NCBI GenBank assembly: GCA_020621985.1
Contig: JAHRYS010000001.1
Span: 310,001 to 374,000, forward strand
DNA length: 64,000 nucleotides
From: Candidatus Ferrigenium altingense
GTDB taxonomy: Bacteria > Pseudomonadota > Gammaproteobacteria > Burkholderiales > Gallionellaceae
Direction of reading: 5' to 3'
Part shown: positions 9,340 through 37,502 of the stretch, one piece after another
Numbering within the stretch: position 1 is the stretch's first letter
Layout of the letters: every line of letters starts with the position of its first letter
Notes under the pieces: model-generated
The model's database searches: none
What the model was told of the DNA's origin: nothing
Seen by the model: the letters and a program-made list of their open reading frames with translations, nothing else
Program-made: the position numbers and the translations under genes

Positions 9340-10177
9340 AAGTAGCAAACCCAGCCTGTTGGAACGCCTTTCCACGTTTCTGCTGCGCGAACCGGAAGAC
9401 CGCGGGCAATTGATTCAACTGCTGCATTCCGCCTACGAGAATAACCTGCTGGACGCCGACGCGCTGTCCATGATGGAAGGCGTGCTGCAAGTCTCCGAGC
9501 GCCCGGTGCGCGAAATCATGATCCCGCGCGCGCAAATGGATGTCATCGACATCAGCGAGCCGCCGGAAAAATTCATCCCCTTTGTTATCGAGACCGCCCA
9601 CTCGCGTTTCCCCGTGACCGATGGCAGCAAGGACAACGTCATCGGCATCCTGCTGGCGAAAGACCTGCTGCGCTATTACGCCGGAGAAGAGTTTGACGTG
9701 CGCGACATGTTGCGCCCGGCGGTTTTCGTGCCGGAAGCAAAACGCCTCAACGTGCTGTTGCGCGACTTCCGCAGCAACCGCAACCACATCGCGCTGGTGG
9801 CGGACGAGTACGGCGGCGTGTCCGGCATGGTGACGATCGAGGATGTGCTGGAGCAGATCGTCGGCGATATCGAGGACGAATACGATTTCAACGAGGACGA
9901 GGACAACATCATTCCCGACAGTAAAGGGAAGTGGCGCGTGAAGGCCGACACCGAGATCGGCGATTTCAACGAGGCGCTCGGCACGGAATTCAGCGACGAG
10001 GAATGCGACACCGTGGGCGGCCTGGTGCTCAAGGCCGCCGGGCAACTTCCCAAGCGCGGCGATCATGTGCATATCGGCGAGCTGGACTTTACCGTGCTGC
10101 GGGTGGATAGCCGCAGGTTGTATTCGTTGCTGGTGGAGCGGAAAAACCCTGCGACAGAAACGTTGAGCCAAGGTTAA
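9326..10177 (+). CDS. corC: CorC/HlyC-family CBS-domain protein (magnesium/cobalt efflux)
   Basis: CorC-type proteins have two CBS domains and a C-terminal transporter-associated domain and are linked to Mg2+/Co2+ handling. The 283-residue product has VSERPVREIMIPRAQMDVID, CBS1 (PFVIETAHSRFPVTDG), CBS2 (FRSNRNHIALVADEYGGVSG), the VTIEDVLEQIVGDIEDE motif and a C-terminal CorC_HlyC domain. There are no membrane segments. The ATG at 9326 is chosen over a TTG at 9320. The gene overlaps the end of ybeY and so belongs to the miaB-ybeY transcript. Confidence 0.92.
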   Translation: MDDPESSKPSLLERLSTFLLREPEDRGQLIQLLHSAYENNLLDADALSMMEGVLQVSERPVREIMIPRAQMDVIDISEPPEKFIPFVIETAHSRFPVTDGSKDNVIGILLAKDLLRYYAGEEFDVRDMLRPAVFVPEAKRLNVLLRDFRSNRNHIALVADEYGGVSGMVTIEDVLEQIVGDIEDEYDFNEDEDNIIPDSKGKWRVKADTEIGDFNEALGTEFSDEECDTVGGLVLKAAGQLPKRGDHVHIGELDFTVLRVDSRRLYSLLVERKNPATETLSQG

Positions 10178-22417: not shown

Positions 22418-23192
22418 GGTATCAGGCGTATTTTGCAATCAGTTGCTCGAATTCCTTTACCGGGACAGGTTTGCTGAACAGATAACCCTGAAAGGTATGG
22501 CAGTCATTCAATTCGAGGAACTTGCGTTGCGCTTCGGTTTCCACGCCCTCGGCGATAACTGCCAGATTCATGCTCTTGGCCAGCGATATGATAATTTTGG
22601 CGATGGCCGCATCGTTGGGGTCGGTGAGCACATCGCGCACGAAGGATTGGTCGATCTTCAACTGGTACAAGGGCAGGCGTTTCAGGTAGGAGAGCGAGGA
22701 ATAGCCGGTGCCGAAGTCGTCCATGGAGAAGCTGATGCCCCGTGTTTTCAGTACGGTCATTTTTGCGATGATGTCATCCACATTATCCAGCAGCAGGCTT
22801 TCGGTGATCTCCAGCTTGAGTCTTGCGGGGTTCACACCGAAATAATCGACCAATGCCAGCACCTCTTCAACGAAAGTCGGCAGGTTGAACTGCTTGGCGC
22901 TGACATTCACCGCCAAAGTGAGGTGGGCCATTTCCGGCTGCGCCGCCCAAGTCGCCAGTTGCTCGCAGGCGGTGGCCATCACCCAGTGGCCCAAAGGCAG
23001 GATCAACCCGGATTCCTCGGCAAGCGGGATGAAATCGGCAGGAGACACCATGCCGCGCTCCGGGTGCCGCCAGCGCACCAAGGCCTCGGCACCGATCATG
23101 CGGCCCGATGAATCGACTTGCGGTTGATAGTAAAGCAGGAATTGCTCCTGCTCGGAAACGGCGCGGCGCAGATCGGATTCCAGCGCGACGCG
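22418..23192. repeat. 775 bp direct repeat, copy 1 (EAL-coding)
   Basis: The segment appears identical, by protein, antisense-frame and spot base comparison, to 26356-27130. The match starts four bases beyond the stop codon and ends at a G/A difference at 23193. Beyond that, similarity continues with scattered changes to about 23720 through the GGDEF region. The offset between copies is 3938 bases. Confidence 0.9.
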
Positions 23193-26051
23193 GGCCGTGA
23201 CCGCAGTCTGCATGGCGGGGTCGAAGAAGCGCACGGTATTGCGCCCGTCTGCCTTGGCCTGGTACAGCGCGACATCCGCCCGCTTGAGCATTTCTTCCAT
23301 CGTTCTCACCGGCCCGCGGAACAGCGTGATGCCGATGCTGGCCGTGCTGTGGTGTTCGTGGCCGTTGATGAGGCAGGGCTGCCCGAGAATCTCGCGTATT
23401 TTTTCTCCTACGGTTTCGGCCTGGGTGGCGGCGACCTGTTCGTCTTCGTCCAGGTCTTCAAGCAGGACGACGAATTCGTCGCCGCCCAGCCGCGCGGTGG
23501 TGTCGCCTTCCCGAATGCAGGTTTGCAGCCGGTTTGCCATTTCGATCAGCAGCAGGTCGCCGACAGCGTGGCCTTGGGTGTCGTTGATACTCTTGAAGTT
23601 GTCGAGGTCGATAAACAGCAGCGCACCCTGCCGGTCAGTGCGGACGCTCAGCGCAAGCGCCTGTTGCAGCCGGTCGAGCAGGAGCCGCCGGTTGGGTAAC
23701 TGGGTGAGAGGGTCGTAGAAAGCCAGGGAGTAAATCTGCTCTTCCGATTGCTTGCGCAGGCTGATATCGGCGAAGGCGGAAACGTAATGGGTGACCTGCC
23801 CGTCCGCTCCCCTTACCGCCGAGATGGTTTGCCACTCCGGGTAGATTTCGCCATCCTTGCGCCGGTTCCATATCTCGCCTTGCCAGTAGCCGTCGCATTC
23901 GAGCGCTTTGCGGATGGCCTGGTAGAACGCTGCGTCGTGCCTCCCGGACTTAAGGATAGCGGATGTTTTTCCTACTACCTCCTCGGCGCTGTAGCCGGTT
24001 ATCTCGATGAAGGCTTTATTGACGCGCTCGATGATGCCGTTGGCACTGGTGATGAACATGCCTTCCTGCGATTCGAACGCCTTTGCGGCGATGCGTAACT
24101 CCTGTTCGGCTAGCCGGTGTTCCGTCACGTCGCGGACCACTTCCAGCTTGGAAATTGTCCCATCACGGTTCTGGATAGGCGTCGCGATGATGTCGAAGAC
24201 GCGGCCGTCGGGCATGACCGGCGTGTAGCGTGTCGTCCCTCCCTCGAGGAGCACCTGCTCAATCTGGCAATGCGTGCATTGCCCGGTTGATCCGCCGAGG
24301 GATGAATAGCAAGTTTGGCCGATCTGGTCGCCGAACCACTCCTTCATCACGGCATTCATGAAGCGGACGCGGTAGTCGGCATCGACGATGAACAGCCCGA
24401 TGCCAATCTCTCCCATGGCCTCGGTGACCGACTGGTGGAAGGCGCGGCTCTCGCGTAATTCCTCTTCAGCCTGCTTGCGTTCGGTGATGTCCGTGATAAA
24501 TCCGTGCCAGAGCGTCGATCCCTCCGCCTCGCGTTGCGGCTGCGAGTCGCCCTGCAGCCAGAGCACCGTGCCGTCGTCGAATTTCACCCGGAACTCATGA
24601 TGCCATGGTGTCAAATCGCGCGCGGATACCTCGATGGATGCGAGAGTATCGTCATGGTCGTCCGGATGGATGGCTGCAAATAGTTTGGAGGCGTCCTCGC
24701 GGATTTCCTCCGGGCTGACCCGGAATAATTCGCGGATGGCATTGCTGGCAAAAGGAAGGCAGTAGCTGCCGTCCGGGCGCTGCAGGAATTGGTAAACGGC
24801 ACCTGGCACCTGGCTGGTGATGAGCTGGAGGCGGTGCAATGCTTCCTGCTGCGCCTCTTCCACACGTTTGCGCTCGGTGATGTCGCGAATGTAGGCCGTG
24901 AAAATAACGCGGTCGCTCTCGCGGATCGGCGTGATGGTCAGTTCGATTGGAAATTCAGTGCCGTCGCGCCGCAGCGCGGTAATTTCAATGCGGCGGTTCA
25001 GGATATGGGTTTCGCCGGTCTTTATATAGCGGTCAATCCCGTTTTGGTGATTGCTGCGGTGGCGTTCCGGGATCAGCAGCTCGGTCATCGTTCGCCCGAT
25101 AACTTCTGCTCTGCGCCAGCCGAACATGGCCTCTGCTGCCGGATTGAAGCCGATCAGCCGGCTTTCCGCATCGATGCTGATTACCGCGTCCAGCGCCGAG
25201 TTGATCGTCGTCCACAGGCGCGCTTCGCTTTCTGTCAATTTGCGGTTGTTGCCGGCGACAGTTTTCTGCCATTCGGCAATGGCGCGATCGGCTCTGAAAG
25301 CGGATAAAAACAGGGTTGCATACAGTGCGGCGAAGGCACCGAAGATAATCAGGGCGATATGGATGGTTTTGGCGTAGATGCGGTCAAAAGACGGCGTGAT
25401 GTCCGCATAAATTTCCAGCACCCCGATGCGCTTTTCCGCATGGGTCAGCGGCACATAGGTTGCGAGGATATGGCGATCGCGGACATCGCCGGCCGGGGTG
25501 CGGAACGTATCGCGGAATTCCAGTTGGTGCTGCGTTCCGCTTGTCAGGGCTTTCTTCGGCATTCCCGGATTCCGGCTAGTTCCGCCGATATCGTCCGGGA
25601 TTGACGAGAAGATGGTTATCCCCGACGGGTTGTACAGCTTCAGCTTGAGAATATCGTGTTCGCGAACCGTGTCCAGGGTGGCGTTGAATGGGGCGATGCG
25701 AGGGTTTGCCCGCAGGGCCTGGGTATCGAGCTCGGCGGTGGCGGCAACGTAAGCAGTGATCTGCTCGTTCATCAGTTGAATGAGGTGAATCGCAGTCTTT
25801 TCATTCTCCTGCGCGGCGATTTTCTCATGCTCGTCAAGTTGATCCTGCCGGTACAGGAATATCAGCAGGGTGGCGGTAATAAGGGTGGCCAGCAGACTGG
25901 TGATCGAGATGCGGCGCAGCAGCGGGAATCGGGTTGCCGAGAGCGCTGCACCGGCATCGGCTTTTTGGTCGTGCCCGGCCATGCGGCCATGGCGCACTAC
26001 CACGGCGCTGCCATCGGCTGCCGGCTGGCTGGATTCCTTGTCTTGTTCCAT
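22422..26051 (-). CDS. Membrane sensor with four PAS domains, GGDEF and EAL domains
   Basis: The 1209-residue product has TM1 at about 49-67, a periplasmic region to about 228, TM2 at about 229-252, then PAS domains at about 272-395, 405-526, 535-645 and 652-768, GGDEF (about 772-940) and EAL (about 955-1200). The cyclase motif LGGDEFVVLLE is intact, as is the phosphodiesterase signature AEALVRW, so both c-di-GMP synthesis and degradation are possible. The third PAS has three closely spaced cysteines (C581, C592, C595 in CYSSLGGSTGQCTHC), possibly a metal or redox site. The last 257 codons are apparently identical to those of the neighbouring gene 26360-28813. Confidence 0.9.
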   Translation of the reverse strand: MEQDKESSQPAADGSAVVVRHGRMAGHDQKADAGAALSATRFPLLRRISITSLLATLITATLLIFLYRQDQLDEHEKIAAQENEKTAIHLIQLMNEQITAYVAATAELDTQALRANPRIAPFNATLDTVREHDILKLKLYNPSGITIFSSIPDDIGGTSRNPGMPKKALTSGTQHQLEFRDTFRTPAGDVRDRHILATYVPLTHAEKRIGVLEIYADITPSFDRIYAKTIHIALIIFGAFAALYATLFLSAFRADRAIAEWQKTVAGNNRKLTESEARLWTTINSALDAVISIDAESRLIGFNPAAEAMFGWRRAEVIGRTMTELLIPERHRSNHQNGIDRYIKTGETHILNRRIEITALRRDGTEFPIELTITPIRESDRVIFTAYIRDITERKRVEEAQQEALHRLQLITSQVPGAVYQFLQRPDGSYCLPFASNAIRELFRVSPEEIREDASKLFAAIHPDDHDDTLASIEVSARDLTPWHHEFRVKFDDGTVLWLQGDSQPQREAEGSTLWHGFITDITERKQAEEELRESRAFHQSVTEAMGEIGIGLFIVDADYRVRFMNAVMKEWFGDQIGQTCYSSLGGSTGQCTHCQIEQVLLEGGTTRYTPVMPDGRVFDIIATPIQNRDGTISKLEVVRDVTEHRLAEQELRIAAKAFESQEGMFITSANGIIERVNKAFIEITGYSAEEVVGKTSAILKSGRHDAAFYQAIRKALECDGYWQGEIWNRRKDGEIYPEWQTISAVRGADGQVTHYVSAFADISLRKQSEEQIYSLAFYDPLTQLPNRRLLLDRLQQALALSVRTDRQGALLFIDLDNFKSINDTQGHAVGDLLLIEMANRLQTCIREGDTTARLGGDEFVVLLEDLDEDEQVAATQAETVGEKIREILGQPCLINGHEHHSTASIGITLFRGPVRTMEEMLKRADVALYQAKADGRNTVRFFDPAMQTAVTARVALESDLRRAVSEQEQFLLYYQPQVDSSGRMIGAEALVRWRHPERGMVSPADFIPLAEESGLILPLGHWVMATACEQLATWAAQPEMAHLTLAVNVSAKQFNLPTFVEEVLALVDYFGVNPARLKLEITESLLLDNVDDIIAKMTVLKTRGISFSMDDFGTGYSSLSYLKRLPLYQLKIDQSFVRDVLTDPNDAAIAKIIISLAKSMNLAVIAEGVETEAQRKFLELNDCHTFQGYLFSKPVPVKEFEQLIAKYA

Positions 26052-26105
26052 TGCGATTGCAGGTTGATATAAGGGGCAAATCCTATCACATAGCCTGCCT
26101 GATTC

Positions 26106-26228
26106 TCAGGGGATTTCCGCATCGTTCATGCGGCCGAGAATAATGCCGGTTTTGCGCAGCAGGCCGCGCGCTTCGCGGTGGGTGTCGTAATAGCGCGGGT
26201 CGGGCACCATCGCGGCAAATTTGGCCGG
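26106..26228 (-). pseudogene. mtgA: Truncated duplicate of the 3' end of mtgA
   Basis: This stretch matches the 3' end of the intact mtgA (35820 onward) over about 119 bases with two mismatches. It encodes the last 39 or so residues, AAMVPDPRYYDTHREARG through RMNDAEIP and stop, in the same orientation. The match begins exactly at the stop codon and breaks off into unrelated DNA near 26225. No promoter or upstream domain is present, so it cannot be functional. Together with intact mtgA it brackets a 9.6 kb block of six genes. Confidence 0.9.
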
Positions 26229-26276
26229 ATTCGGGGGCTGGGTTGCGAAAATGGAGTCAGGCGTGCTGCAAAATTT

Positions 26277-26349
26277 ATCGTTCCCATGCTCCGTGAGGGA
26301 TCGACTGGCGGCATCCAGAGCGCGCTCCCACGCAGAGCATGGGAGCGAT
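26277..26349. repeat. Inverted repeat between mtgA remnant and second GGDEF-EAL gene
   Basis: ATCGTTCCCATGCT at 26277-26290 is matched by AGCATGGGAGCGAT at 26336-26349. The arms resemble the common CGTTCCCA-type dispersed bacterial palindromes. It lies just downstream of the second GGDEF-EAL gene. The whole 26052-26359 gap thus holds the mtgA remnant, this palindrome and no gene. Confidence 0.75.
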
Positions 26350-26355
26350 ATCGAT

Positions 26356-27130
26356 GGTATCAGGCGTATTTTGCAATCAGTTGCTCGAATTCCTTTACCG
26401 GGACAGGTTTGCTGAACAGATAACCCTGAAAGGTATGGCAGTCATTCAATTCGAGGAACTTGCGTTGCGCTTCGGTTTCCACGCCCTCGGCGATAACTGC
26501 CAGATTCATGCTCTTGGCCAGCGATATGATAATTTTGGCGATGGCCGCATCGTTGGGGTCGGTGAGCACATCGCGCACGAAGGATTGGTCGATCTTCAAC
26601 TGGTACAAGGGCAGGCGTTTCAGGTAGGAGAGCGAGGAATAGCCGGTGCCGAAGTCGTCCATGGAGAAGCTGATGCCCCGTGTTTTCAGTACGGTCATTT
26701 TTGCGATGATGTCATCCACATTATCCAGCAGCAGGCTTTCGGTGATCTCCAGCTTGAGTCTTGCGGGGTTCACACCGAAATAATCGACCAATGCCAGCAC
26801 CTCTTCAACGAAAGTCGGCAGGTTGAACTGCTTGGCGCTGACATTCACCGCCAAAGTGAGGTGGGCCATTTCCGGCTGCGCCGCCCAAGTCGCCAGTTGC
26901 TCGCAGGCGGTGGCCATCACCCAGTGGCCCAAAGGCAGGATCAACCCGGATTCCTCGGCAAGCGGGATGAAATCGGCAGGAGACACCATGCCGCGCTCCG
27001 GGTGCCGCCAGCGCACCAAGGCCTCGGCACCGATCATGCGGCCCGATGAATCGACTTGCGGTTGATAGTAAAGCAGGAATTGCTCCTGCTCGGAAACGGC
27101 GCGGCGCAGATCGGATTCCAGCGCGACGCG
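26356..27130. repeat. 775 bp direct repeat, copy 2 (EAL-coding)
   Basis: Second copy of the EAL-coding segment at 22418-23192. It includes the stop codon and the last 257 codons of the gene 26360-28813. The lack of visible changes here, against clear divergence in the adjoining GGDEF region, indicates recent duplication or gene conversion. Confidence 0.9.
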
Positions 27131-28813
27131 AGCCGTGACCGCAGTCTGCATGGCGGGGTCGAAGAAGCGCACGGTATTGCGCCCGCCAGCCTTGGCCTGG
27201 TACATCGCAACATCCGCCCGCTTGAGCATTTCTTCCATCGTTCTCACCGGCCTGCGGAACAGCGTGATGCCGATGCTGGCCGTGCTGTGGTGCTCGTGGC
27301 CGTTGATGAGGTAGGGCTGCCCGAGGGCCGCGAGTATCTTCTCCCCCACTGTTTCGGCCTGGGTGGCGGCAACCTGTTCATCGACGTCCATACCTTCAAG
27401 CAGGACGACGAATTCGTCGCCGCCCAGCCGCGCGGTGGTGTCGCCTTCCCGGATGCAGGCTTGCAGCCGGTTTGCCACTTCGACCAGCAGCAGGTCGCCA
27501 ATTGCGTGGCCTTGGGTGTCGTTGATACTCTTGAAGTTGTCGAGATCAATAAACAGCAGCGCACCCTGCTGGCCGGTGCGGACGCTCAGCGCAAGCGCCT
27601 GGTGTAACCGGTCGAGCAGGAGCCGCCGGTTGGGCAGCCTGGTCAATGGGTCATAGAAAGCCAAGTCACGAATTTTCTCTTCTGCCTCCTTGCGCTCGGT
27701 GATATCAGAAAATGCACAAACATAATTCGTGATTTCACCATTGGTGCCGACAACGGCGGTAATGGTCAGCCATTCCGGGTAGATTTCGCCATTCTTGCGC
27801 TGGTTCCATATCTCCCCTTGCCAGTAATGGTCGCGATGCAGGCTTTCCTGCATGCGCTGATAGAACCCCGCATCCTGGTGGTCGAACTTGAGCATGGGCA
27901 GGGTCTTGCCGATGGCCTCTTCGGCGCTATAGCCGGTCAGTTTTGTGAAGACACGGTTGACCCGGATGATCACCTCGTTCCGATCAGTCACGATCATGCC
28001 TTCTTCGATCTCGAAGGCAATGGCGGCAACACTCAAAGCCGCCTCGCGCTCTTCCAGCACAGCCATCATGCTATTGAAGGCTTGGGCCATGTCGGCGATG
28101 TCCTTCGGACCGGCCAGCACGGCGCGCACCTGCGATTCGCCTGCCTTGGCGCGCCCCATGCTGGCAGATAACCGGTTAAGTGGCTGCGTCATGCGGTTGG
28201 TCAGGAAGCGGATCAGGAACAGGAACAGCAGTGCGAAGGAAAACGACGTGGCCAGATTGACAACAAAAATGTCGGTAGTCGTCTGAGACAGCGCCGCCTT
28301 GCTCATCACCACCGAAACATGGCCGAGCAACTCGGGTGCGGCTGTCTGCACATTGAATGGCGATTCGGCAGAAGACTGCGTATATACCGGCGCAGTAAAA
28401 CGCCATGCATGCCGGCTTTCCGCATCGAGAACGGCTGCGTCCTGCACCCAGTTGGTTCGCTCGATTACAGTGGGAAATTCGGCAGGGTCGGCGTTGCCGC
28501 GTGTCAGCAATGTGCGCTGGCTGACGTCGCGTATTTCCACACTGACCACGCCTGGGAAAGCCATGGTCGCATTCGCTGCCTCGGCGGCGTTGTCAGCCGA
28601 GGCGTAAACCAGCGCCAGGGTACTCTGACGGGCCAGATTCTCAGTGATGCGCTGGCCTTGCTCAAGAAGGTTAAGGCGTATCCGCTCATTACTCTGCCAT
28701 GATCCCACCAGAGAGGAAGACAACGCCATGAACAGAACACCGAGCGTGACCATAAAGCCAAGCTGGTGGCTGAAAGTGAATCTTTGGAGAAATTCGTTGA
28801 GAATCTTCTTCAT
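26360..28813 (-). CDS. Membrane sensor with CHASE8-like, HAMP, PAS, GGDEF and EAL domains
   Basis: Order in the roughly 817-residue product: TM1 (about 18-36, LGFMVTLGVLFMALSSSLVG), a periplasmic CHASE8-like sensor (about 40-165), TM2 (about 175-200), HAMP (about 200-255), PAS (about 260-380, with GYSAEEAIGKTLPML), GGDEF (LGGDEFVVLLE intact) and EAL (AEALVRW intact). It should adjust c-di-GMP in response to a periplasmic signal. It lies 8 bases downstream of a periplasmic binding-protein gene and a TonB receptor, which suggests that the binding protein presents the ligand. ATG 28813 is chosen; a GTG at 28819 is possible. Confidence 0.9.
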   Translation of the reverse strand: MKKILNEFLQRFTFSHQLGFMVTLGVLFMALSSSLVGSWQSNERIRLNLLEQGQRITENLARQSTLALVYASADNAAEAANATMAFPGVVSVEIRDVSQRTLLTRGNADPAEFPTVIERTNWVQDAAVLDAESRHAWRFTAPVYTQSSAESPFNVQTAAPELLGHVSVVMSKAALSQTTTDIFVVNLATSFSFALLFLFLIRFLTNRMTQPLNRLSASMGRAKAGESQVRAVLAGPKDIADMAQAFNSMMAVLEEREAALSVAAIAFEIEEGMIVTDRNEVIIRVNRVFTKLTGYSAEEAIGKTLPMLKFDHQDAGFYQRMQESLHRDHYWQGEIWNQRKNGEIYPEWLTITAVVGTNGEITNYVCAFSDITERKEAEEKIRDLAFYDPLTRLPNRRLLLDRLHQALALSVRTGQQGALLFIDLDNFKSINDTQGHAIGDLLLVEVANRLQACIREGDTTARLGGDEFVVLLEGMDVDEQVAATQAETVGEKILAALGQPYLINGHEHHSTASIGITLFRRPVRTMEEMLKRADVAMYQAKAGGRNTVRFFDPAMQTAVTARVALESDLRRAVSEQEQFLLYYQPQVDSSGRMIGAEALVRWRHPERGMVSPADFIPLAEESGLILPLGHWVMATACEQLATWAAQPEMAHLTLAVNVSAKQFNLPTFVEEVLALVDYFGVNPARLKLEITESLLLDNVDDIIAKMTVLKTRGISFSMDDFGTGYSSLSYLKRLPLYQLKIDQSFVRDVLTDPNDAAIAKIIISLAKSMNLAVIAEGVETEAQRKFLELNDCHTFQGYLFSKPVPVKEFEQLIAKYA

Positions 28814-28821
28814 TGGCACTT

Positions 28822-29817
28822 TTACTGCTCAGGGAATGTCGTGTCGAAACCCTGCTGACGGCCTGGATTGAGCCCCAAGTGCTTGGCAGTGCGCAGGTTG
28901 ATAGTGCTTTGCACGTCGCGCAATGGCATCATGCCGCGCCATCCATAGTCGCCTGAGGTCAAAATACCTTGAGCCAAACCGGCAAGGCTTTTCCCCAATG
29001 CCATGTTGTCGGGGTAAAGCGAAAATAGCACGCCACGTCGGACGTGGCTGGAATTACTGGAAAAAACCGCAATGCCTTGGTTCCATGATGCCTGTAGCAC
29101 CAAAGGTAGTATTGATCTTTCATCCACCGTGATGGAATCCTGGGGTAACCATAACGCATCCCTGCGGTTGTCAGCCACGGAGAAAATTTCCTGGTAGAGC
29201 CGTACCGCACTGCGCAGGTCATGCGCCTCATGCGCCACCAACTCCAGCCCCTGAGCACGAGCGGCTTCTTTGGCCAACTTCATCAGCCAGCCGTTGGAGC
29301 CTGGGTCGTAGACGACAAACACACGCTTCGCCGTCGGCATCAGCACCTTCAGGCGGGCAAACAACAGTGCCGGATCCGGCGACAGGCTGATCACCGGCTG
29401 CATGCGCGCCTCGCTTTCAGGTACCGTCAGCACGCCGCCCACCACAAACCAGATGTTGCGATCCAGTGCAGCCGCCGTCTTCATACCCTGCCGGCCAAGG
29501 GCAATCACCACCTTGGTATTCTGGCGGTACAGACTGGATTTCAGCGCACCGATATCCGTGTCGTATTGCACCGGATACTTGGCTACCGGCGTGCCAGCCT
29601 GGTCTTCGATGCCATCGATTATTTTCTCGAATATCCCCCGATAAGGCTCACCAATGTCGGGATAGATCACTGCGATCCTGTCTTCCCCCGCTGCCCATGC
29701 CGGTAAGGTAACGACCAGCGCTGTGAAGAATAACAGCACAACGCCCAGCAACACGGCAGCCAACCGGCCTTTGGCTCTGGCGTGGCAAATGTAAACGGAT
29801 TCGGTCGGAGAAAACAT
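28822..29817 (-). CDS. Periplasmic substrate-binding protein (ABC_sub_bind-like) without transporter partners
   Basis: The 331-residue product has an N-terminal membrane/signal segment (LAAVLLGVVLLFFTALVVTL), then a two-lobed type 1 periplasmic-binding fold: DRIAVIYPDIGEPYRGIFEK, KVVIALGRQGMKTAAALD, RVFVVYDPGSNGWLMKLAKE and ALWLPQDSITVDERSILPLV. This pattern fits the ABC_sub_bind group, whose ligands are often unknown. No ABC permease or ATPase gene is nearby. It starts 14 bases after the TonB receptor and precedes the sensor GGDEF-EAL gene, so a role in signalling rather than import is likely (inference). Confidence 0.83.
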   Translation of the reverse strand: MFSPTESVYICHARAKGRLAAVLLGVVLLFFTALVVTLPAWAAGEDRIAVIYPDIGEPYRGIFEKIIDGIEDQAGTPVAKYPVQYDTDIGALKSSLYRQNTKVVIALGRQGMKTAAALDRNIWFVVGGVLTVPESEARMQPVISLSPDPALLFARLKVLMPTAKRVFVVYDPGSNGWLMKLAKEAARAQGLELVAHEAHDLRSAVRLYQEIFSVADNRRDALWLPQDSITVDERSILPLVLQASWNQGIAVFSSNSSHVRRGVLFSLYPDNMALGKSLAGLAQGILTSGDYGWRGMMPLRDVQSTINLRTAKHLGLNPGRQQGFDTTFPEQ

Positions 29818-29831
29818 TGGGCAGTTTCAGA

Positions 29832-31901
29832 TCATAGCTGGTGACTTAGTTCGAAGCGGTACTCGCGCGGGGCCAGCGGCAGGTCGTTGGGAATCAAGCC
29901 AGGCGCCGGAGACGGCTCGCGCGCGTCGGCATTGAACAGGTTGCGCACGGTGAAGGCAAAATCCCAGTCGCCGCTGCGCTTCTGGTTGCGTAGCGTGAGA
30001 TCCACGGTGCGGTAATCGGCGATAGCGGGGCGGGTATCCGTTGGCTCGCGCTTGCGGCCGGCAATATAGTTGAGTTGAGTGTTCAATGTCCAGCTCGGCA
30101 TAAAGCGCCAGTCCGCGCGGGCATAGATGTGGTGCTGGGGTGCGTTGCCCGCATCCTGGTTCGTTGTCTCATCGATCGAGCGTTGCTGCGCGTAATTGCC
30201 GGAAAGCCGCAGGTTGGTACGCGCTTCCCAGGCCAACTCGACTTCAATGCCCTGGCCGTGCTGGCGCCCGGCATTCTGCGCGGTAAAACTGTTATCCGGG
30301 TTCTGCACGAAACGCAGAATATCCTTCATCTGGTAGCGAAACAGGTTCAGGCTCGTCTGCACGGTGCTGGCAGGCTGCCAGGCGAAAGCCAGTTCCATGG
30401 ACTCGATCGATTCCGGCTTCAGGTTGGGATTGCCCAGTCCCACCGGATTGTTGATATTGTAAAGTTCTACGAATGACGGCGGGCGGAAGGCGCGCCCGTA
30501 GAGCAGCTTGCTGGTGAGGTTGTAAGCCGTTTCCCATACCAGTGCAAGGCGCGGGTTGGTGGTGCCGCCGAAATCGGAATACAGGTCGCGGCGCACGCCA
30601 GCGGTCAGGTACCAGTCCTGGGCAAAAGCCCATTCGTCCTGCACGTAGGCATGGCTCACGTTGCGGCTGTGCGGACGCAGGAAAGGCGCGCTGTCGGTTA
30701 CATCCACCAAAGCCCCCAGAGGAATAGGTGCACCCACTGGCTGGGTGTAATTCTTGGTTTCCTGGATACGGTACAGGTGGTTTTCCTGGACTCCGGTGCC
30801 GAAGTGCAGTTTGTGATTCTGCAGGCCGGAATATAATGCCGACAGGTTGAAGCGCAAGTGGTGTTCCCACTTGTAGGGGTTGCCGATCACACCGTCGGTA
30901 AATGCGCCCGTGCCAAAATTGGTGCCCGGAGGATAAAGCACTAGGTTGGAACGGTCGTTGAGATAGAAATAACTGGTTTGGGCGGTCACGTCCAAGTCGC
31001 GGCCGAAGTTCGCGTCCTGATAGGTGAGGTCGGTGGAAAAACGCTTACTGGAATTGCTGCCCTTGGGATCCAGCGCCTGCGCCGCCCCGGCTGCGGTACC
31101 CACATTATCGCGCTGCTGATAGCCGGCGCGCAGCCGCCATTGGTCGCGTGCCAAGTCGATGCGGCCATCAATGGCATCGCGGCCGAGATTGACCGGCCCC
31201 GGTGCAAGGGAAGTACCCAAGGCAGTCGCCGCGTCCCGGCTGATTGTCCTGCGCTGCCCATCGGTGGCACCCACTCGCAGATAAGCGGCAACGTCGAAGC
31301 CGCTCCATTCGCCGCCATGCAGCACCCAGGCGTCGCGGCTGTTGAACGAGCCGGCGCGCAAGCCGATTTTGGTGCCGTCGAGGTCGGCGGCGGTCTTGGT
31401 GATGATATTGATCACGCCGGAAAAGGCATCGGCGCCGTACAGCGCGGAGCCGGGGCCGCGGATCACTTCGATGCGCGCGATGTTCTCCACCGGCATGCCG
31501 CCCCAGACACGGGAGCGATCTCCGACGAATACGCTGGTGATCGGAATGCCGTTCACCAGCATCAGCATCTGGGGATTGTACTGGGTGTAGATGCCGCGCA
31601 TTACATAGATCGGGTTGTAGCCGGAGGCGGTCCGCGCCACGTGCATGCCCGGTACGGTTTCCAGCACCTCGTCCAGATCCGCCGCGCCGATGGCTGCGAT
31701 ATCTTCCGTAGTGACCACGGTGGCGACCGACGGCGCCCGCGCGATGGGTTGCCGGGTGCCGCTGGCGATGCTGATGAAGGACTTGTCGCCGTAGGCCAGC
31801 GCCAATTCTTCTTCCTCGGACTGCGGCGCAGCATGGGCGCCGGCGCTCCACGCTACTGCCAGTGCCGCAGCGGTGAGCCGTGCAATCGTCCTCCTATTCA
31901 T
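29832..31901 (-). CDS. TonB-dependent outer membrane receptor
   Basis: The 689-residue product has a signal peptide (MNRRTIARLTAAALAVAWSA to AHA), a plug domain with SVATVVTTEDIAAIGAADLD, GYNPIYVMRGI, VNGIPIT and IEVIRGPGSALYGADAFSGV, and a long beta-barrel ending in YRFELSHQL, an aromatic/hydrophobic C-terminal strand as expected. Catecholate, haem, cobalamin or other ligands cannot be separated by eye; the barrel resembles the FepA/Cir/BtuB-like group. The ATG at 31901 has GGGAGAG before it and is preferred to 31937. It heads the receptor, binding protein, GGDEF-EAL operon. Confidence 0.92.
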   Translation of the reverse strand: MNRRTIARLTAAALAVAWSAGAHAAPQSEEEELALAYGDKSFISIASGTRQPIARAPSVATVVTTEDIAAIGAADLDEVLETVPGMHVARTASGYNPIYVMRGIYTQYNPQMLMLVNGIPITSVFVGDRSRVWGGMPVENIARIEVIRGPGSALYGADAFSGVINIITKTAADLDGTKIGLRAGSFNSRDAWVLHGGEWSGFDVAAYLRVGATDGQRRTISRDAATALGTSLAPGPVNLGRDAIDGRIDLARDQWRLRAGYQQRDNVGTAAGAAQALDPKGSNSSKRFSTDLTYQDANFGRDLDVTAQTSYFYLNDRSNLVLYPPGTNFGTGAFTDGVIGNPYKWEHHLRFNLSALYSGLQNHKLHFGTGVQENHLYRIQETKNYTQPVGAPIPLGALVDVTDSAPFLRPHSRNVSHAYVQDEWAFAQDWYLTAGVRRDLYSDFGGTTNPRLALVWETAYNLTSKLLYGRAFRPPSFVELYNINNPVGLGNPNLKPESIESMELAFAWQPASTVQTSLNLFRYQMKDILRFVQNPDNSFTAQNAGRQHGQGIEVELAWEARTNLRLSGNYAQQRSIDETTNQDAGNAPQHHIYARADWRFMPSWTLNTQLNYIAGRKREPTDTRPAIADYRTVDLTLRNQKRSGDWDFAFTVRNLFNADAREPSPAPGLIPNDLPLAPREYRFELSHQL

Positions 31902-32002
31902 GATCTCTCCCTTGGCCGCAGGAATACGCGGCAACATCTTTTGATATGATGTTTTTTATGTAATGCCTGTCCCGGCAACAGGTTCGCTATTGGTTCAAAG
32001 TA

Positions 32003-32818
32003 TCAGGTTTTCGGGGTGGTGCCTTGCCATGGGCGGCGAACAGCACCTTCATATAGCATAACGCGGCAAGGCAGCGGAAACAACAGGCCAGCCGGTTTGT
32101 CCGCTGCTTCCAGGTAGCATGGCGGCATGCCGGCGAGGAAGGCGGGAATGCGGAATAGGTAATATTCCAGCGGGGAAAAGCCGAAATCTGCCGCCACTGC
32201 GGCCACCAGCGCCCCATAATTTATGCGCAGAGCGGGATTCCGGCCGACCAGGATTTTTTCCACCTCGAACGCCAGTTCCACATGGATGCCGCGATCCAGG
32301 TTATGCTCGCGCAGTAGCGCCATCATGGGTTCGATTCGCTCGTCCGCTGCGCTTAAGGGGCGGCCAAATCCATAAATATAGCCGCCGTGGAGCGCGGCGG
32401 CGACCAAGCCCGCCAGCGGCTTGCCCCGCTCCATGCCGAGGCGCGCCTCCAGCAGGAATTCGATGGCCCGCAGCGAAGAACCGCCGCCGTAAATGCGCGC
32501 ATCAGACACCGCCAGTGCCGCAGCGATGCCAAGGCTCGCAGTGCTGCGCGCACTGCCCGCCAGCGCTGCCACGCGGTTATTCCAGATGCGCGCGTCGGGG
32601 TAGCTGGTATAAACCCAGGTCGCCTGCAACACGGCCATCTGTTGCGGCGTAAAGCGGCGGCCGGTGATGCCGAACAAATAAAGTTCCAGCCAATCCATAT
32701 CTTTCAACGCTGCGTGCAGGTCGAGGCCGCGGAACACCGCACGCTCGCCCAGAAAACATGCCCCGGCGCGAGTAACGAGCCGCCCGGCATATTGTTCCAG
32801 CAGTTGCGGCCCGTTCAT
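32003..32818 (-). CDS. Citrate synthase/citryl-CoA lyase-like protein A, catalytic residues replaced
   Basis: The 271-residue product aligns with the small citrate-synthase-fold (citryl-CoA lyase-like) group: ARSTASLGIAAALAVSDARI, YGGGSSLRAIEFLLEARLG, GFGRPLSAADERI, LRINYGALVAAVAADFGFSP and LFRIPAFLAGM. In the alignment I make by hand, the GP-x-HGGA histidine is Tyr (RIYGGG), the GFGH histidine is Arg (GFGRPL), and the late Asp is replaced (INYGAL). It probably cannot do classical citrate chemistry alone. The start overlaps the stop of paralogue B by an ATGA, suggesting a co-translated pair. Confidence 0.75.
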   Translation of the reverse strand: MNGPQLLEQYAGRLVTRAGACFLGERAVFRGLDLHAALKDMDWLELYLFGITGRRFTPQQMAVLQATWVYTSYPDARIWNNRVAALAGSARSTASLGIAAALAVSDARIYGGGSSLRAIEFLLEARLGMERGKPLAGLVAAALHGGYIYGFGRPLSAADERIEPMMALLREHNLDRGIHVELAFEVEKILVGRNPALRINYGALVAAVAADFGFSPLEYYLFRIPAFLAGMPPCYLEAADKPAGLLFPLPCRVMLYEGAVRRPWQGTTPKT

Positions 32819-33657
32819 GCCCCTCCCTCCACACAATTTCCTATGCCTTGCGCGGGACCGGGGTCATTCTCCAGTTCCACCTGGAAAAACGGAAAATTTT
32901 TGTGGCCGTACTCCTTTTGCTCCAGCGCGTGTACCGCAGCGCCCGGCAGCCGCAACAACAGGTGTAGCATTTCTCCCTGCGCCGGCGTGCAGCCAAGGTC
33001 GCGCAACGCCGTCGCCGCCACTCCGGACATCGCCAGCGGCAAGCCGGCGGCGGATTCCAGCGACGATCGGTTGGCTTGCAGCCAGGCCAGAGATGATCCG
33101 CAACCCAAGTCGGCCCCGCAACCCACTTCGACAAGATGCGCCAATGTTTGCAACACCGGCCCGGTGCAGCGCACGCCGTGCGGGTCGAAACCGGCTGGGT
33201 GACCGGGCGCGGGCCAGACATCCGCCGGACCAGCTATAGGTTTTGCCGCCAGACTCGATTGCCACAGCGCCAGATCGGTGCCGCGTACCAGCCAGTCCTC
33301 CATCACGAGCCGCACTTCCCGTGCACCGCCGGATGCGCCCGCACCCACCGCCAGCGCCGCCATCAAACAGGATGCCGAGGTGGAACCGCCGACTCCGCCG
33401 CACATCGCGGCATGTACCGCCGCATCGCGCGGCCCCGGATTCGCCAGCGCGATCGCCAAGCCCTCCAGCAGTCTGGCCTGTTGCGCTGAAGGCGCCTCGC
33501 CGCGAAACAGCAGGAACAGGTACTCGATCCAGCTTGCATGGGCCAGCAGGTCACCGTAAACATCGTAACCGTGGCAATGACAGGATGCCGCCGCGAACGC
33601 ATTGTCAGGCTCGGCTTCCTCCTGCCAGATGCGGGTGCGGATGGTTTCCTCACTCAT
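32815..33657 (-). CDS. Citrate synthase/citryl-CoA lyase-like protein B, partly degenerate active site
   Basis: The 280-residue product has EYLFLLFRGEAPSAQQARLL, PGPRDAAVHAAMCGGVGGST, GAGASGGAREVRLVMEDWL, APGHPAGFDPHGVR, LPLAMSGVAATALRDLGCTP and LRLPGAAVHALEQ, which follow the citrate-synthase-fold order. By hand alignment the GP-x-HGGA histidine is Ser (GASGGA), while the GxGHP histidine is kept (PGHPAG) and the late Asp is lost (AMSGVA). Together with protein A it may form a heteromer in which sites are shared. It overlaps the TPP enzyme gene by four bases. Confidence 0.77.
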   Translation of the reverse strand: MSEETIRTRIWQEEAEPDNAFAAASCHCHGYDVYGDLLAHASWIEYLFLLFRGEAPSAQQARLLEGLAIALANPGPRDAAVHAAMCGGVGGSTSASCLMAALAVGAGASGGAREVRLVMEDWLVRGTDLALWQSSLAAKPIAGPADVWPAPGHPAGFDPHGVRCTGPVLQTLAHLVEVGCGADLGCGSSLAWLQANRSSLESAAGLPLAMSGVAATALRDLGCTPAQGEMLHLLLRLPGAAVHALEQKEYGHKNFPFFQVELENDPGPAQGIGNCVEGGA

Positions 33658-35405
33658 TTCACCGCCCCCAAAATTTTGATGCGCAGCCCCATAGGCGGGA
33701 CTTCCTCCTTGTCAATGCGCACATCCAGAACGGTAGGACCCGGATGGCGCAGGATTGCATCCAGATCGAGATTGTCAAAATCCTCGGCGGTGCGGATCAC
33801 ATGGCCGGGAATGCCCATGGATTCGGCCAGTAGCCGGAAATCAACTTTCGGTAATTCGACCCCGACCTGTTCAGCACCGGCCAGACGCTGGCCGTGCTTT
33901 ACCATGCCCAGTGCCGCATCGTTGAGGACCACGAATACCACGCAGAGCTTCTCGGTCAGCGCTACGGTCATTTCCTGGCCATTCATCAGCAGGCTGCCGT
34001 CGCCGGTGATGCAGACCACCGGCACAGCGCGGTTGCCGAGCGCGGTGCCGACCGCGCCGCCGATGGCCCAGCCCATCGGGGCGAAATTCATCGTGACACG
34101 CATCCAGCCGCCTGCACTGGCTTGGTGGTCGTGCATCCCCAGATGATGGATCGCCCATGCGATGCTATTGCCGGTGTCGACCAGGAAACGCGTGTCGGGC
34201 GGACTGCGCCAGCCAAGCTCGTGCATCAAATACTGCGGCTTGATCGGTGCGCCGGCGGATGCAGATTTGAACGGTTCGTCGACCGAGATATTTCTGAATC
34301 TTCGCTTCTCACCGACGGAAATCTCTTTCGTGCCATCCTTGCGCAGCGTTCGCAGCACCCGCTCTAACACCAGGCGGACACGACCGCGTACGTGCAGACG
34401 CGCCATCGGCGAGCGCGTCAGGTGCATCTCGCAGGAATCGATATGCACCAGCCGGTTATTCAGCAGCGATTCATCCCAGCCGTTGCTGGTAAACTCGCCC
34501 ATATCTGTGCCAACTGCAAGTATCAGGTCAACTCCCTTATCCCCCATCGCCGCATCGGCAGACGTGTGGCCGGCGAACCCGAATACACCACGGTATGAAG
34601 GGTGACGCGGGCTGATGAATCCCTTGGCGTCGGGTGTGACGACGAAAACTGCGCCTATTCTCTCCACCAATTCGATGACGAGGTCGATCGCCTCCCCGCA
34701 GCCGCTGCCGATCAGTACCACCACCCGCTGAGCCTGCGCCAGTTGCGCCTGCAATTTCCGAACCGCCGCGTCATCGACAGCAGACGGCTGCAGCAACAGA
34801 TGCGCCAGATCATAGGCTGGCCCACTTTTCATCAGCGAGCGCTGCACGTCCACCGGAATGCTGAGGTGAACCGGGCCGGGTGTCGGCTGATACGCGGCCA
34901 GCAGTGCATTGGTCAATTGTCTTTCCAGTTGATCAGGATGGGATACCAGTGCGCTGTAGCATGTGCAGGTGCGAAACATCGCGACCGTGTCGATGCCTCC
35001 CATGCCCGCAGATTCCTGCATCGCCCCCCGGCCCAGCAAATGCAGCGAGGGCTGGCCGGTGATGACCAGCATCGGGATCCCGTTTTCATAAGCGCAGGCC
35101 ACGCCGGTGATGAGATTGGTGGCACCCGGGCCGGAAGTGGCACAGCACACTCCGATCCTGCCCGTTTCACGAGCGTAGCCATCGGCCATGAAAGCGGCCC
35201 CCGTTTCATGACGCGCTACTACCGGGCGCGGTCCGCCGCGTCGGGCGCTGCGCGCGAGCGCGTTGTACAGCGGTTCGATGGCACCGCCGGGCACGCCGAA
35301 TACAAACTCGACATTGATTTGTTCCAGATAGGCGACCAGCAGGTCTACCGCTTCCATGGGTTGTGGTTCTGTTTTGAGGTTTTGTTTTTGCTGTATTTCT
35401 GTCAT
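33654..35405 (-). CDS. Acetolactate synthase-like thiamine diphosphate enzyme
   Basis: The 583-residue product has three ThDP-enzyme domains. The N-terminal pyrimidine-binding domain carries FGVPGGAIEPLYNAL, the catalytic Glu in ARHETGAAFMADGYAR, TSGPGATNLITGVACAYENG and GRGAMQESAGMGGID. A central domain follows (about 200-340). The C-terminal ThDP domain has MNFAPMGWAIGGAVGTALG, ITGDGSLLMNGQEM and VVLNDAALGM, with GDG plus ND metal ligands. Substrate is unknown: family members include acetolactate synthase, sulfoacetaldehyde acetyltransferase and acyloin-forming enzymes. No small regulatory subunit is adjacent; instead it is coupled to two citrate-synthase-like genes. Confidence 0.83.
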   Translation of the reverse strand: MTEIQQKQNLKTEPQPMEAVDLLVAYLEQINVEFVFGVPGGAIEPLYNALARSARRGGPRPVVARHETGAAFMADGYARETGRIGVCCATSGPGATNLITGVACAYENGIPMLVITGQPSLHLLGRGAMQESAGMGGIDTVAMFRTCTCYSALVSHPDQLERQLTNALLAAYQPTPGPVHLSIPVDVQRSLMKSGPAYDLAHLLLQPSAVDDAAVRKLQAQLAQAQRVVVLIGSGCGEAIDLVIELVERIGAVFVVTPDAKGFISPRHPSYRGVFGFAGHTSADAAMGDKGVDLILAVGTDMGEFTSNGWDESLLNNRLVHIDSCEMHLTRSPMARLHVRGRVRLVLERVLRTLRKDGTKEISVGEKRRFRNISVDEPFKSASAGAPIKPQYLMHELGWRSPPDTRFLVDTGNSIAWAIHHLGMHDHQASAGGWMRVTMNFAPMGWAIGGAVGTALGNRAVPVVCITGDGSLLMNGQEMTVALTEKLCVVFVVLNDAALGMVKHGQRLAGAEQVGVELPKVDFRLLAESMGIPGHVIRTAEDFDNLDLDAILRHPGPTVLDVRIDKEEVPPMGLRIKILGAVK

Positions 35406-35819
35406 TGACTGACCATTGTTCCAGTTTCAAAACGCATCACCCCAACTGCTCCAACCTTGGAGACTTTGCATCTCCGCCGCGAACGAAGGATGTGTTGTTC
35501 CGCGATGCGAACGAAACTGTAGCACAGTGAGCATACTATGCCGAACAGATCGTGATATTTCAGCCATATCAGCCTCGCCAGGTTGCAGCGATTTTCATCG
35601 CACGTTCAGTTTTGCGGATTCAACTATGAAATGTAACTTTTGTGAGTGAATTTAGGCGGAGCGCAACGACATCCACACTTGCGCGCTCCGTTATTTCCGC
35701 GCAGGGATGGTTCATTAGTCTTGAAAAACCGTTGAGAGGGTAGTAAGCGTAGTTTAACGCATTGAAATAACACACGATTTTTAGCCAATCGCTTATTTTT
35801 AAATGAATTGCCCGTTTGT
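35406..35819. other. Promoter-bearing gap, relatively AT-rich, no gene
   Basis: This 414 bp gap separates the TPP enzyme from mtgA. It has an imperfect hairpin at 35657-35690 (CGGAGCGC paired with GCGCTCCG) and an AT-rich stretch at 35740-35820. It should hold the promoter of the minus-strand TPP/citrate-synthase-like operon. Short open frames here show no family resemblance. The right boundary coincides with the mtgA direct repeat. Confidence 0.6.
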
Positions 35820-36515
35820 TCAGGGGATTTCCGCATCGTTCATGCGGCCGAGAATAATGCCGGTTTTGCGCAGCAGGCCGCGCGCTTCGCGGTGGGTGTC
35901 GTAATAGCGCGGGTTGGGCACCATCGCGGCAAGTTTGGCGGCCTGCTCCGCATTAAGACTGGCCGCATTGGTGCGGTAGTAGTGGCGCGCGGCCGCTTCC
36001 GCGCCGAACACGCCGTTGCCCCATTCGATCACGTTGAGATAAATCTCGAAAATGCGCCGCTTGTCCATCACCGCTTCCAGCATCACGGTGATGAGCACTT
36101 CCTCGCCCTTGCGCCACGGCGTGCGTTTGGTGGAGAGAAACAAATTCTTGGCGAGCTGCTGGCTGATGGTGGAGCCGCCCGCGACGATCTTGCCCTTCTT
36201 CATGTTTTTCTCGTAGGCCTTCTGGATGCCCTCCCAGTCGAAGCCTTCGTGATCGACGAACTTCGCGTCCTCCGAGGCGATCAGCGCGCGCTTGAGGTTG
36301 TTGGAAATCTTCGCGTAGGGCACCCACTGGTGCCGCAGTTCGGCATCCGGGTTCTTGTCCTGCATGATTTCCAGGCGGCTTTCCATGAACGCGCTGGTGG
36401 ACGGGTTGAATTTTATCCACCAGCAGATATGCGCGAAAATCCACAGTTGATAAAGCAGCAACAGGGCGAAACAGATCGCCAGCGCGCGCCATGTCCAGCC
36501 CCAGAGTTTTTTCAT
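35820..36515 (-). CDS. mtgA: Monofunctional biosynthetic peptidoglycan transglycosylase
   Basis: MtgA polymerises lipid II glycan strands at the inner membrane. The 231-residue GT51 protein has an N-terminal anchor (LAICFALLLLYQLWIFA), the catalytic Glu region ALIASEDAKFVDHEGFDW, GGSTISQQLAKNLFLS, the second acidic site KRRIFEIYLNVIEWGNGVFG and AKLAAMVPNPRYYD. It is complete. Its last 119 bases are duplicated at 26106-26224. It lies four bases downstream of aroE. Confidence 0.95.
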   Translation of the reverse strand: MKKLWGWTWRALAICFALLLLYQLWIFAHICWWIKFNPSTSAFMESRLEIMQDKNPDAELRHQWVPYAKISNNLKRALIASEDAKFVDHEGFDWEGIQKAYEKNMKKGKIVAGGSTISQQLAKNLFLSTKRTPWRKGEEVLITVMLEAVMDKRRIFEIYLNVIEWGNGVFGAEAAARHYYRTNAASLNAEQAAKLAAMVPNPRYYDTHREARGLLRKTGIILGRMNDAEIP

Positions 36516-36518
36516 TGC

Positions 36519-37358
36519 TTAGGTGCGCAGCGCGGCGATGATCGGCGCGGTGTCCGGGCGCACGCCGCGCCAGATGTAAAACGCTTCGGCGGCCTGTTCG
36601 ACCAGCATGCCGAGGCCATCTGCTACCTGCGCGCCATGCTCGCGCGCGAATCTCATGAACGGCGTCTCGCGCCCGTACATCATGTCGTAGGCCAGCGCGC
36701 CGGGGGCGAAGATATCAGCCGGCAACGGAGGTAATTCATTGGAAAGGCCGGCGGAGGTGGCATTGATAATTAGATCGAATTGTTTCCTGTCAGCTTCATT
36801 TGGAAAGTTGTAAACATTGACCACATGCCCAAGTTTTCCAAGATGGAGCGCAAATTGGTCGGCCTTTTCTGGCGTACGATTTGCGATGAAAAGATGTGCT
36901 TCCGCTAGAAGCAAAGGCAATGCTACGCCGTACGCGGCACCACCAGCGCCTATGAGCAAAATGCGCTTACCATGCAATGAAACGCCAAGAATGCGCTCGA
37001 TGTTGCGCACAAGCCCTGTGCCATCTGTGTTGTCACCATCGATGAAATTTTCATGAAACTTTAAGGTATTCGCAGCACGTGCGTTCGTAGCCCTTTGAGT
37101 AGGTGCGCCAGCGGGAGGGGTTCTTTCCGCAAGTTCTCTAACCAATTCGTATGCCTCGAACTTGAACGGCACGGTCACGTTGCAGCCCTTGTAGCCTTCC
37201 TTGCGCAACCGTTCGACGGTCGCGGCAAAGCCGTCCAGCGGCGCGAGGATGGCCTCGTAGCTGATGTCCTGCCCGGTCTGCGCGGCGAACATGCTGTGGA
37301 TCAGCGGCGATTTGCTGTGGGCGATGGGGTTGCCGATGACGGCGTAGCGATCGATCAT
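36519..37358 (-). CDS. aroE: Shikimate dehydrogenase, mosaic gene
   Basis: AroE reduces 3-dehydroshikimate to shikimate with NADPH. Motifs: GNPIAHSKSPLIHSMFA, GCNVTVPFKFEAYEL (catalytic Lys), GDNTDGTGLVRNIE (catalytic Asp), LIGAGGAAYGVALPL, IANRTPEKA, INATSAGL and DGLGMLVEQAAEAF. An insertion of about ten residues (RTPPAGAPTQ) sits before ARAANTL. The central DNA (about 36750-37150) is clearly poorer in GC than the two ends: one 60-base row at 36781 has 24 G/C, against 42 at 36541. This suggests that the middle was replaced by recombination with a divergent aroE. Activity is probably kept. Confidence 0.93.
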   Translation of the reverse strand: MIDRYAVIGNPIAHSKSPLIHSMFAAQTGQDISYEAILAPLDGFAATVERLRKEGYKGCNVTVPFKFEAYELVRELAERTPPAGAPTQRATNARAANTLKFHENFIDGDNTDGTGLVRNIERILGVSLHGKRILLIGAGGAAYGVALPLLLAEAHLFIANRTPEKADQFALHLGKLGHVVNVYNFPNEADRKQFDLIINATSAGLSNELPPLPADIFAPGALAYDMMYGRETPFMRFAREHGAQVADGLGMLVEQAAEAFYIWRGVRPDTAPIIAALRT

Positions 37359-37502
37359 GAATATTGAACCGAAAAAATGGCGCTATTTGGACTATCTGAT
37401 TATAAAGGCTGCGGGTCTAATCGCGCCCTAAAGTTTTTCCGGAAATGCCGGGATTAAGGCTTTCGGGGAAATACCGAATCGTGGAGTTATATGGGAGAAG
37501 TC

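Follow-up and report, generated by a model that had tools for sequence, protein, structure and literature searches.

A conserved six-gene unit joining a ThDP-dependent enzyme and two altered citrate-synthase-fold proteins to a receptor, a binding protein and a sensor: a possible circuit for making and sensing a small molecule

A run of six reverse-strand genes in a 64,000-nucleotide stretch of Candidatus Ferrigenium altingense, a member of the Gallionellaceae (assembly GCA_020621985.1, contig JAHRYS010000001.1, positions 310,001 to 374,000; the whole stretch is called the window), encodes a thiamine diphosphate (ThDP)-dependent enzyme, two proteins of the citrate-synthase fold, a TonB-dependent outer-membrane receptor, a binding protein and a membrane sensor, and the same six parts recur together in other bacteria. 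Individually these parts are of known kinds. Our favoured reading, reached by analogy and held at a probability of roughly 0.45, is that the genes constitute one synthase-receptor-sensor circuit that would make and sense an acyloin-derived small molecule, with the two citrate-synthase-fold proteins acting as re-tooled partners of the ThDP enzyme. The unit is of interest for its pair of citrate-synthase-fold proteins, one with other fixed residues at the catalytic sites, which is tied to a built-in receptor and sensor. Here T denotes the ThDP enzyme and A and B the citrate-synthase-fold proteins; the first-pass annotation, made from the sequence of the window, used the opposite letters, its protein A being our B and its protein B our A. 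The six genes are as follows.

33654-35405, reverse strand: T, ThDP-dependent enzyme of 583 amino acids with the Pfam thiamine pyrophosphate (TPP) N, M and C domains, by score nearest to BbmA/CsmA
32815-33657, reverse strand: A, citrate-synthase-fold protein (citryl-CoA-lyase-like) of 280 amino acids, its catalytic triad reduced to the second His
32003-32818, reverse strand: B, citrate-synthase-fold protein with Tyr and Arg replacing catalytic residues and none of the three triad residues left
29832-31937, reverse strand: TonB-dependent outer-membrane receptor (PF00593 and PF07715; best PDB match the colicin I receptor)
28822-29817, reverse strand: binding protein of the ABC_sub_bind family (PF04392, by Pfam), judged by eye to be periplasmic from an N-terminal signal-like stretch
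26360-28819, reverse strand: membrane sensor with weak sCache_4, HAMP, PAS, GGDEF and EAL domains, in which the GGDEF and EAL motifs are present

Evidence that the six genes belong together comes from their co-occurrence in other genomes. Of 219 candidate stretches from named genomes, 203 proved to be relatives of A; the best 80 were retained as 79 loci, which include Gallionella, Sulfuricella, Collimonas, Aquabacterium, Roseateles, Dechloromonas, Porticoccaceae, Geobacter, Pelotalea and a metagenome-assembled genome (MAG) of the Fibrobacteres. Co-occurrence was counted in the 49 of these loci with flanks of at least 7 kb and 6 kb, a part being present when a gene anywhere in ~20 kb scored >60 bits to the window gene or fell in the same cluster. 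All six parts were found in 43 of the 49 loci, or in 46 when parts lost in the picking of non-overlapping open reading frames (ORFs) are counted (T and B in L070 and L073, the binding protein in L104), while the other three misses, L096, L107 and L110, are genuine; the totals by part were 47 for T, 49 for A, 47 for B, 47 for the TonB receptor, 45 for the binding protein and 47 for the sensor. The sensor and the TonB receptor belong to large families in which chance neighbours could qualify, so the phyletic distribution of the binding protein provides the stronger test. Among 101 relatives surveyed for B, which was found in 23 (including one fragment, in G048, and two distant forms), the binding protein (E 1e-20) was present in all 23 genomes with B and in 7 of the 78 without it (Fisher p 6e-17). 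A survey of 274 genomes of the class found A in 32.

The seven relatives with a binding protein and no B comprise three in which it lies at a contig end (G006, G029, G045), two with T, receptor, binding protein and sensor, no match to B, and neither A nor B in the stretch read (G009, G058), and two in which T, A and B are all missing beside the receptor, binding protein and sensor (G011, G096). Receptor modules without an adjoining synthase also occur at L178, L183 and L184 and T-only modules at L176 and L182, while G008 carries the trio elsewhere together with a second copy of the receptor, binding protein and sensor. All four loci read from a clade outside the class (L194-L197) contain the compact run TonB-A-B-T-binding protein-sensor. 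Six loci that came from surveying the class were read as well: the full set of parts is present in four (L186, L189, L190 and L191, with T in pieces in L191), T and the binding protein are missing from L187, and L188 holds only an A-like gene of 27% identity. In G048 (L041), B is a fragment at 9597-9848 and A was not found, and a full-length T, the TonB receptor, the binding protein and the sensor are kept, so that this one genome does show decay.

The arrangement of the genes is compatible with joint expression. In the window, T/A and A/B meet in ATGA overlaps, as the first-pass annotation had reported, from which it proposed that the products are probably made in fixed ratio, and translational coupling gains support from 100 loci (some genomes counted twice) in which an ATGA-type junction occurs at A>B in 64 and at T>A in 37, with A and B adjacent in 93. 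Its three-gene operon was accurate for the trio and incomplete as a whole, since the TonB receptor, the periplasmic binding protein and the sensor travel with it. The ORF of B was listed as 32003-32836 with a TTG start, and the ATG at 32818 is the likelier start. Downstream of B the gaps are 65 bases to the receptor gene, 14 to the PF04392 gene and 2 to the sensor gene, and the six genes may be read as one transcript. Promoter predictions numbered 3 against 3.6 expected and terminators 15 against 9.9 expected, both counts being uninformative, and Rfam gave no match at gathering level within 26000-37500.

The other genes that recur around the unit are few, and this bears on whether it could serve the uptake, sensing and breakdown of an outside compound, with the receptor importing it, the sensor reporting it and T, A and B cleaving it as lyases. 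Apart from the six families, the neighbour that recurs most often in 100 loci is an SDR-type gene, found in 12 and in several of them between T and A (Pfam was run on three); the next families reach at most 9 loci, and most are unnamed. A Sulfotransfer_3-type gene occurs in 4 loci, two of which (L033 and L073) represent one genome (Pfam was run on two). A catabolic role would be in keeping with the lyase activity of citryl-CoA lyases and several ThDP enzymes and with the receptor modules that lack adjoining T, A and B; it is opposed by this scarcity of extra neighbours, by the lack of a permease (permeases, ATPases and inner-membrane importers number zero among the six genes) and by a B protein without any residue of the lyase triad, and we consider it very improbable. 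The stretch of Pseudoduganella namucuonensis (L084, 1000-18300) carries T, A and B in duplicate, along with two TonB receptors, an SDR gene and sulfotransferase-type genes. In the Fibrobacteres MAG (L110, 8032-18578), T-A-B adjoins the gene of a very large protein in which protein kinase, AAA, GAF, histidine kinase and receiver domains are combined, and the stretch yielded neither a TonB nor a PF04392 gene.

On a predicted model for B and on sequence profiles for A, both proteins are assigned to the citrate-synthase fold superfamily. Citryl-CoA lyase models matched them far under the curated cut-offs (48 of 261 bits for A, 29 of 193 bits for B), and PF00285 gave 12.7 of 27 bits for A and no match for B. 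Profiles built from 20 A and 20 B sequences had the citryl-CoA lyase 6hxp as the top solved match for both (62 bits for A, 50 bits for B). The predicted model of B (mean pLDDT 70) likewise had 6hxp as its top Foldseek match (E 2.7e-7, TM 0.63), and that of A was poor (pLDDT 52) and unfit for fold search, the fold of A being assigned by profile. A tree was built from 82 rows, of which 32 were A, 32 were B and 18 were citryl-CoA-lyase-like, and each of the three groups forms one side of a supported branch.

The active-site positions of the two proteins were compared with the His/His/Asp set of 6hxp, which we take to be catalytic from general knowledge of the family. In the window, B has Tyr at the first His and lacks both the second His and the late Asp, and A has Ser at the first His, retains the second and lacks the late Asp; the first-pass annotation had named these same losses from a hand alignment. 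For the second His of B, which it paired with Arg, the profile shows a gap at that site with the Arg adjoining, which indicates a deletion rather than a clean His-to-Arg change. The residue counts cover 112 distinct A sequences, one of 113 having scored too low to be kept, and 110 distinct B sequences (2 of 112 dropped), sets which include near-copies from related genomes, so that the counts are not independent events. At the first-His position of A the residues are Leu in 50, Ser in 20, Tyr in 11, His in 8, Asn in 7, Ala in 7, Phe in 4, Val in 3 and Gln in 2; the second His is present in 99 of the 112 and the late Asp in none. Most of the 13 A proteins that lack the second His, L163 among them, belong to the divergent members, in which the GFG motif lies a few columns out of register. 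Catalytic residues in shifted positions, an outcome the first-pass annotation had allowed for, were not seen in the window. Among relatives, those eight A proteins do have the first His, and L163 has a His in a GFGH motif where the alignment column shows none. B is far more uniform: Tyr occupies the first-His position in 107 of 110 (Phe in 2, Val in 1), Arg stands at the second-His site in all 110, the first His, second His and Asp are each found in none, the Glu and Arg of a DER motif (DPR in 6hxp) are kept in all 110, and the Asn preceding the lost Asp is kept in 107. Judged by these aligned residues, A and B fall outside citrate synthase and citryl-CoA lyase as enzymes with His/His/Asp chemistry.

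The fixed replacements in B argue for a working pocket, and they bear directly on the proposal that A and B are pseudoenzymes which regulate or stabilise T without chemistry of their own, in the manner of the small subunits of acetohydroxyacid synthase (AHAS). The loss of the triad in B and of most of it in A, the free variation at the first-His position of A and the persistence of T without A and B at L176 and L182 favour such a role; however, near or full invariance at the active-site-like positions of B is expected of a working pocket, and the A and B proteins of L063, L077 and L085 retain 58-63% identity to their window counterparts while T drops to 34-37%. We consider this explanation improbable. 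Decay into pseudogenes was rejected on low dN/dS against the window (0.11-0.31 for A, 0.12-0.28 for B and 0.14-0.24 for T where defined, the ratio being undefined in 2 of 19 pairs for A, likewise for B, and in 0 of 20 for T), ratios that are rough in that many dS values exceed 1. A place for A and B in the citric cycle was also rejected, as a separate normal citrate synthase (464.7 bits) is encoded elsewhere in the genome, which measures 2.18 Mb and is estimated to be 81% complete. Other short citrate-synthase-like proteins of the phylum (L154-L159, near 1500-2400) appear by eye to be without the first His (SVVLGSA or FVGTMEP) and keep the second His and DPR. A search for plasmid carriage of A gave merely two distant citryl-CoA lyase matches in Roseibium (29% identity).

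The scores of T point to an enzyme nearer to BbmA and CsmA, the CybE homologues, than to acetolactate synthase. Against solved structures T gave 385 bits to BbmA, 343 to CsmA and 279 to E. coli AHAS I by profile, and 300, 275 and 212 bits, respectively, as a single sequence. Acetolactate synthase was rejected as the identity of T: TIGR00118 scored 311.8 bits against a cut-off of 538.35, the AHAS GxRFDDR motif is replaced, and a separate normal acetolactate synthase (834.6 bits, against 311.6 for T) is encoded elsewhere in the genome. The description of T as acetolactate-synthase-like in the first-pass annotation consequently survives as to the TPP enzyme and gives way as to the closest relatives. 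RFDDR is absent from all 23 aligned T rows (L190 was dropped as short), and its Arg presumably holds the second 2-oxo acid in AHAS (acceptor binding). The replacing stretch mostly reads GT..GE[WF]..[ST]..W, with Leu or Ile at the sixth place in three of the rows, and is BbmA-like: T has GTDMGEFTSNGW, and BbmA has GSSLGDWQTNSW at the AHAS GxRFDDR site. Glu67, which we take to be catalytic from family knowledge, and TGDG are invariant in 21 T rows. In the tree the grouping of T is weak and unsettled because the CsmA and BbmA branches are long and the fork is weak.

The receptor gives rise to the main rival explanation, since it resembles siderophore and haem receptors: its best-scoring model is TOL_0244, followed by those of haem and siderophore receptors. 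Under this explanation T, A and B would make a chelator, the TonB receptor would retrieve its metal-loaded form, and the binding protein and sensor would report it. The colicin I receptor match, a host family in which iron matters and the general ability of alpha-hydroxy-beta-keto products to chelate metals are consistent with a metallophore. The absence of an inner-membrane importer from the six genes is not, nor is the varied output type of the sensor, and the window contains no match, at up to 3 mismatches, to a 19-base Fur-box consensus, which is a weak test. In four loci both the sensor and its PF04392 neighbour were run against Pfam, and the sensor is of the GGDEF-EAL type in two (the window and L186) and a hybrid kinase in two; in L194 it is a HAMP-PAS hybrid histidine kinase, and in Pelotalea (L063) the hybrid kinase adjoins the PF04392 protein. 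On balance a metallophore seems rather unlikely, and pure regulation of T and the breakdown of an outside compound are weaker explanations than it. In the window, the 3' ends of the sensor gene and of a neighbouring GGDEF-EAL gene at 22422-26051 align over 1,511 bases with 92.9% DNA identity, and the front halves of the two genes differ, which gives the impression of an output half that was copied or converted from one gene to the other.

The favoured circuit brings these parts together as follows. For T we infer a substrate and an acyloin-derived product from its likeness to the CybE homologues. A and B occupy the place that a KAS III-like enzyme holds in the furanolide and carbazole pathways and are for this reason proposed to act on the product of T; they would do so as a pair, most likely an A.B heteromer, converting it further, probably with an acyl-CoA and probably by a mechanism other than His/His/Asp chemistry. 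The SDR or the sulfotransferase of some loci would tailor the product, which would leave the cell and be brought back into the periplasm by the TonB receptor. There it would bind the PF04392 protein, which would in turn switch the membrane sensor, of the GGDEF-EAL type here and a hybrid histidine kinase in some relatives. A synthase accompanied by a receptor, a binding protein without a transporter and a sensor with swappable output looks like a circuit for a self-made and self-read molecule, and receptor modules without a synthase would fit listeners.

Several observations weigh against this circuit. TonB receptors usually import metallophores or nutrients. The trio occurs without receptor or binding protein at L096, without binding protein or sensor at L107, and without receptor, binding protein and sensor at L110; at L198, T-A-B lies among sensor genes (kinases) with no receptor or binding protein in 15 kb, and at L187 no T or binding protein was found. 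Two Collimonas A proteins carry both His, and some members may thus be less altered. The conservation of A and B says nothing on contact between them or on the use of CoA. Finally, a 28-row tree does not join T with BbmA and CsmA with support (fork 73/78), and the Geobacter-type T of L063, which has the same stretch in place of GxRFDDR as other T proteins, is nearer to acetolactate synthase (467 bits to PRK06276, cut-off 866).

A broader proposal, which we hold as doubtful, is that the unit represents a widespread and undescribed signal class. In it, two re-tooled citrate-synthase-fold proteins would complete an acyloin-derived molecule as a heteromer, a TonB receptor devoted to this molecule would bring it back, and a periplasmic binding protein would detect it and drive c-di-GMP or a phosphorelay; genomes with the receptor alone would be listeners. 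If right, the favoured circuit would constitute a new kind of bacterial chemical signal system and a signal class open to direct test in the Gallionellaceae and other beta- and gamma-proteobacteria as well as in relatives of Geobacter; it would show citrate-synthase-fold proteins performing non-citrate chemistry in natural-product assembly, and would reveal where one set of c-di-GMP sensors and TonB receptors, whose input is unknown, obtains its ligand.

No description of the trio, or of the trio with the receptor, was found in openly licensed literature, in agreement with the first-pass annotation, which knew of no characterised pathway with the trio; a description elsewhere is possible. The words "citrate" and "TonB" occur 0 times in a maculalactone paper (PMC13288894). 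Among known enzymes, citryl-CoA lyase (Hydrogenobacter thermophilus 6hxp; NCBIfam PRK06224 group) shares its size, fold and motif order with A and B, but has a complete catalytic set and is encoded by a single gene, whereas A and B are a tandem pair in separate supported clades. In LuxPQ, a periplasmic binding protein feeds a hybrid histidine kinase, and the binding protein and kinase pairs of L063 and L194 may act alike; LuxPQ differs in its ligand, in having no TonB receptor and in a synthase that is unlinked.

The likeness of T to furanolide-type ThDP enzymes consists in CsmA and BbmA being its best solved matches and in its BbmA-like stretch. In the available text of PMC12395478, CsmA and a second enzyme printed as BpmA (taken here as BbmA) are CybE homologues, and CybE condenses two 2-oxo acids in an acyloin reaction to give a carboxylic acid, which CybF then couples to an acyl-CoA. 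CybF is annotated as a 3-oxoacyl-ACP synthase in the excerpt of PMC8777810. These pathways differ from the unit in that the partner enzyme is CybF, whereas the partners of T are A and B with receptor and sensor genes attached. Carbazole pathways have the same enzyme order as CybE-CybF (CqsB3/CqsB1, NzsH/NzsJ), with a KAS III-like second enzyme and no receptor module mentioned in the portion of PMC7466098 available; their comparison with T is by description. The closest parallel in gene content and spacing is with ScrABC of Vibrio parahaemolyticus, which, according to the available part of PMC11315295, likewise has, within a single operon, genes for a synthase, for a binding protein of the periplasm and for a membrane sensor with cyclase and phosphodiesterase functions: ScrA makes an unidentified S-signal, its periplasmic binding partner is ScrB, and ScrC alternates between the cyclase and the phosphodiesterase state. 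ScrA is an aminotransferase, whereas in the window the presumed synthase would consist of a ThDP enzyme and two citrate-synthase-fold proteins, and a TonB receptor is added.

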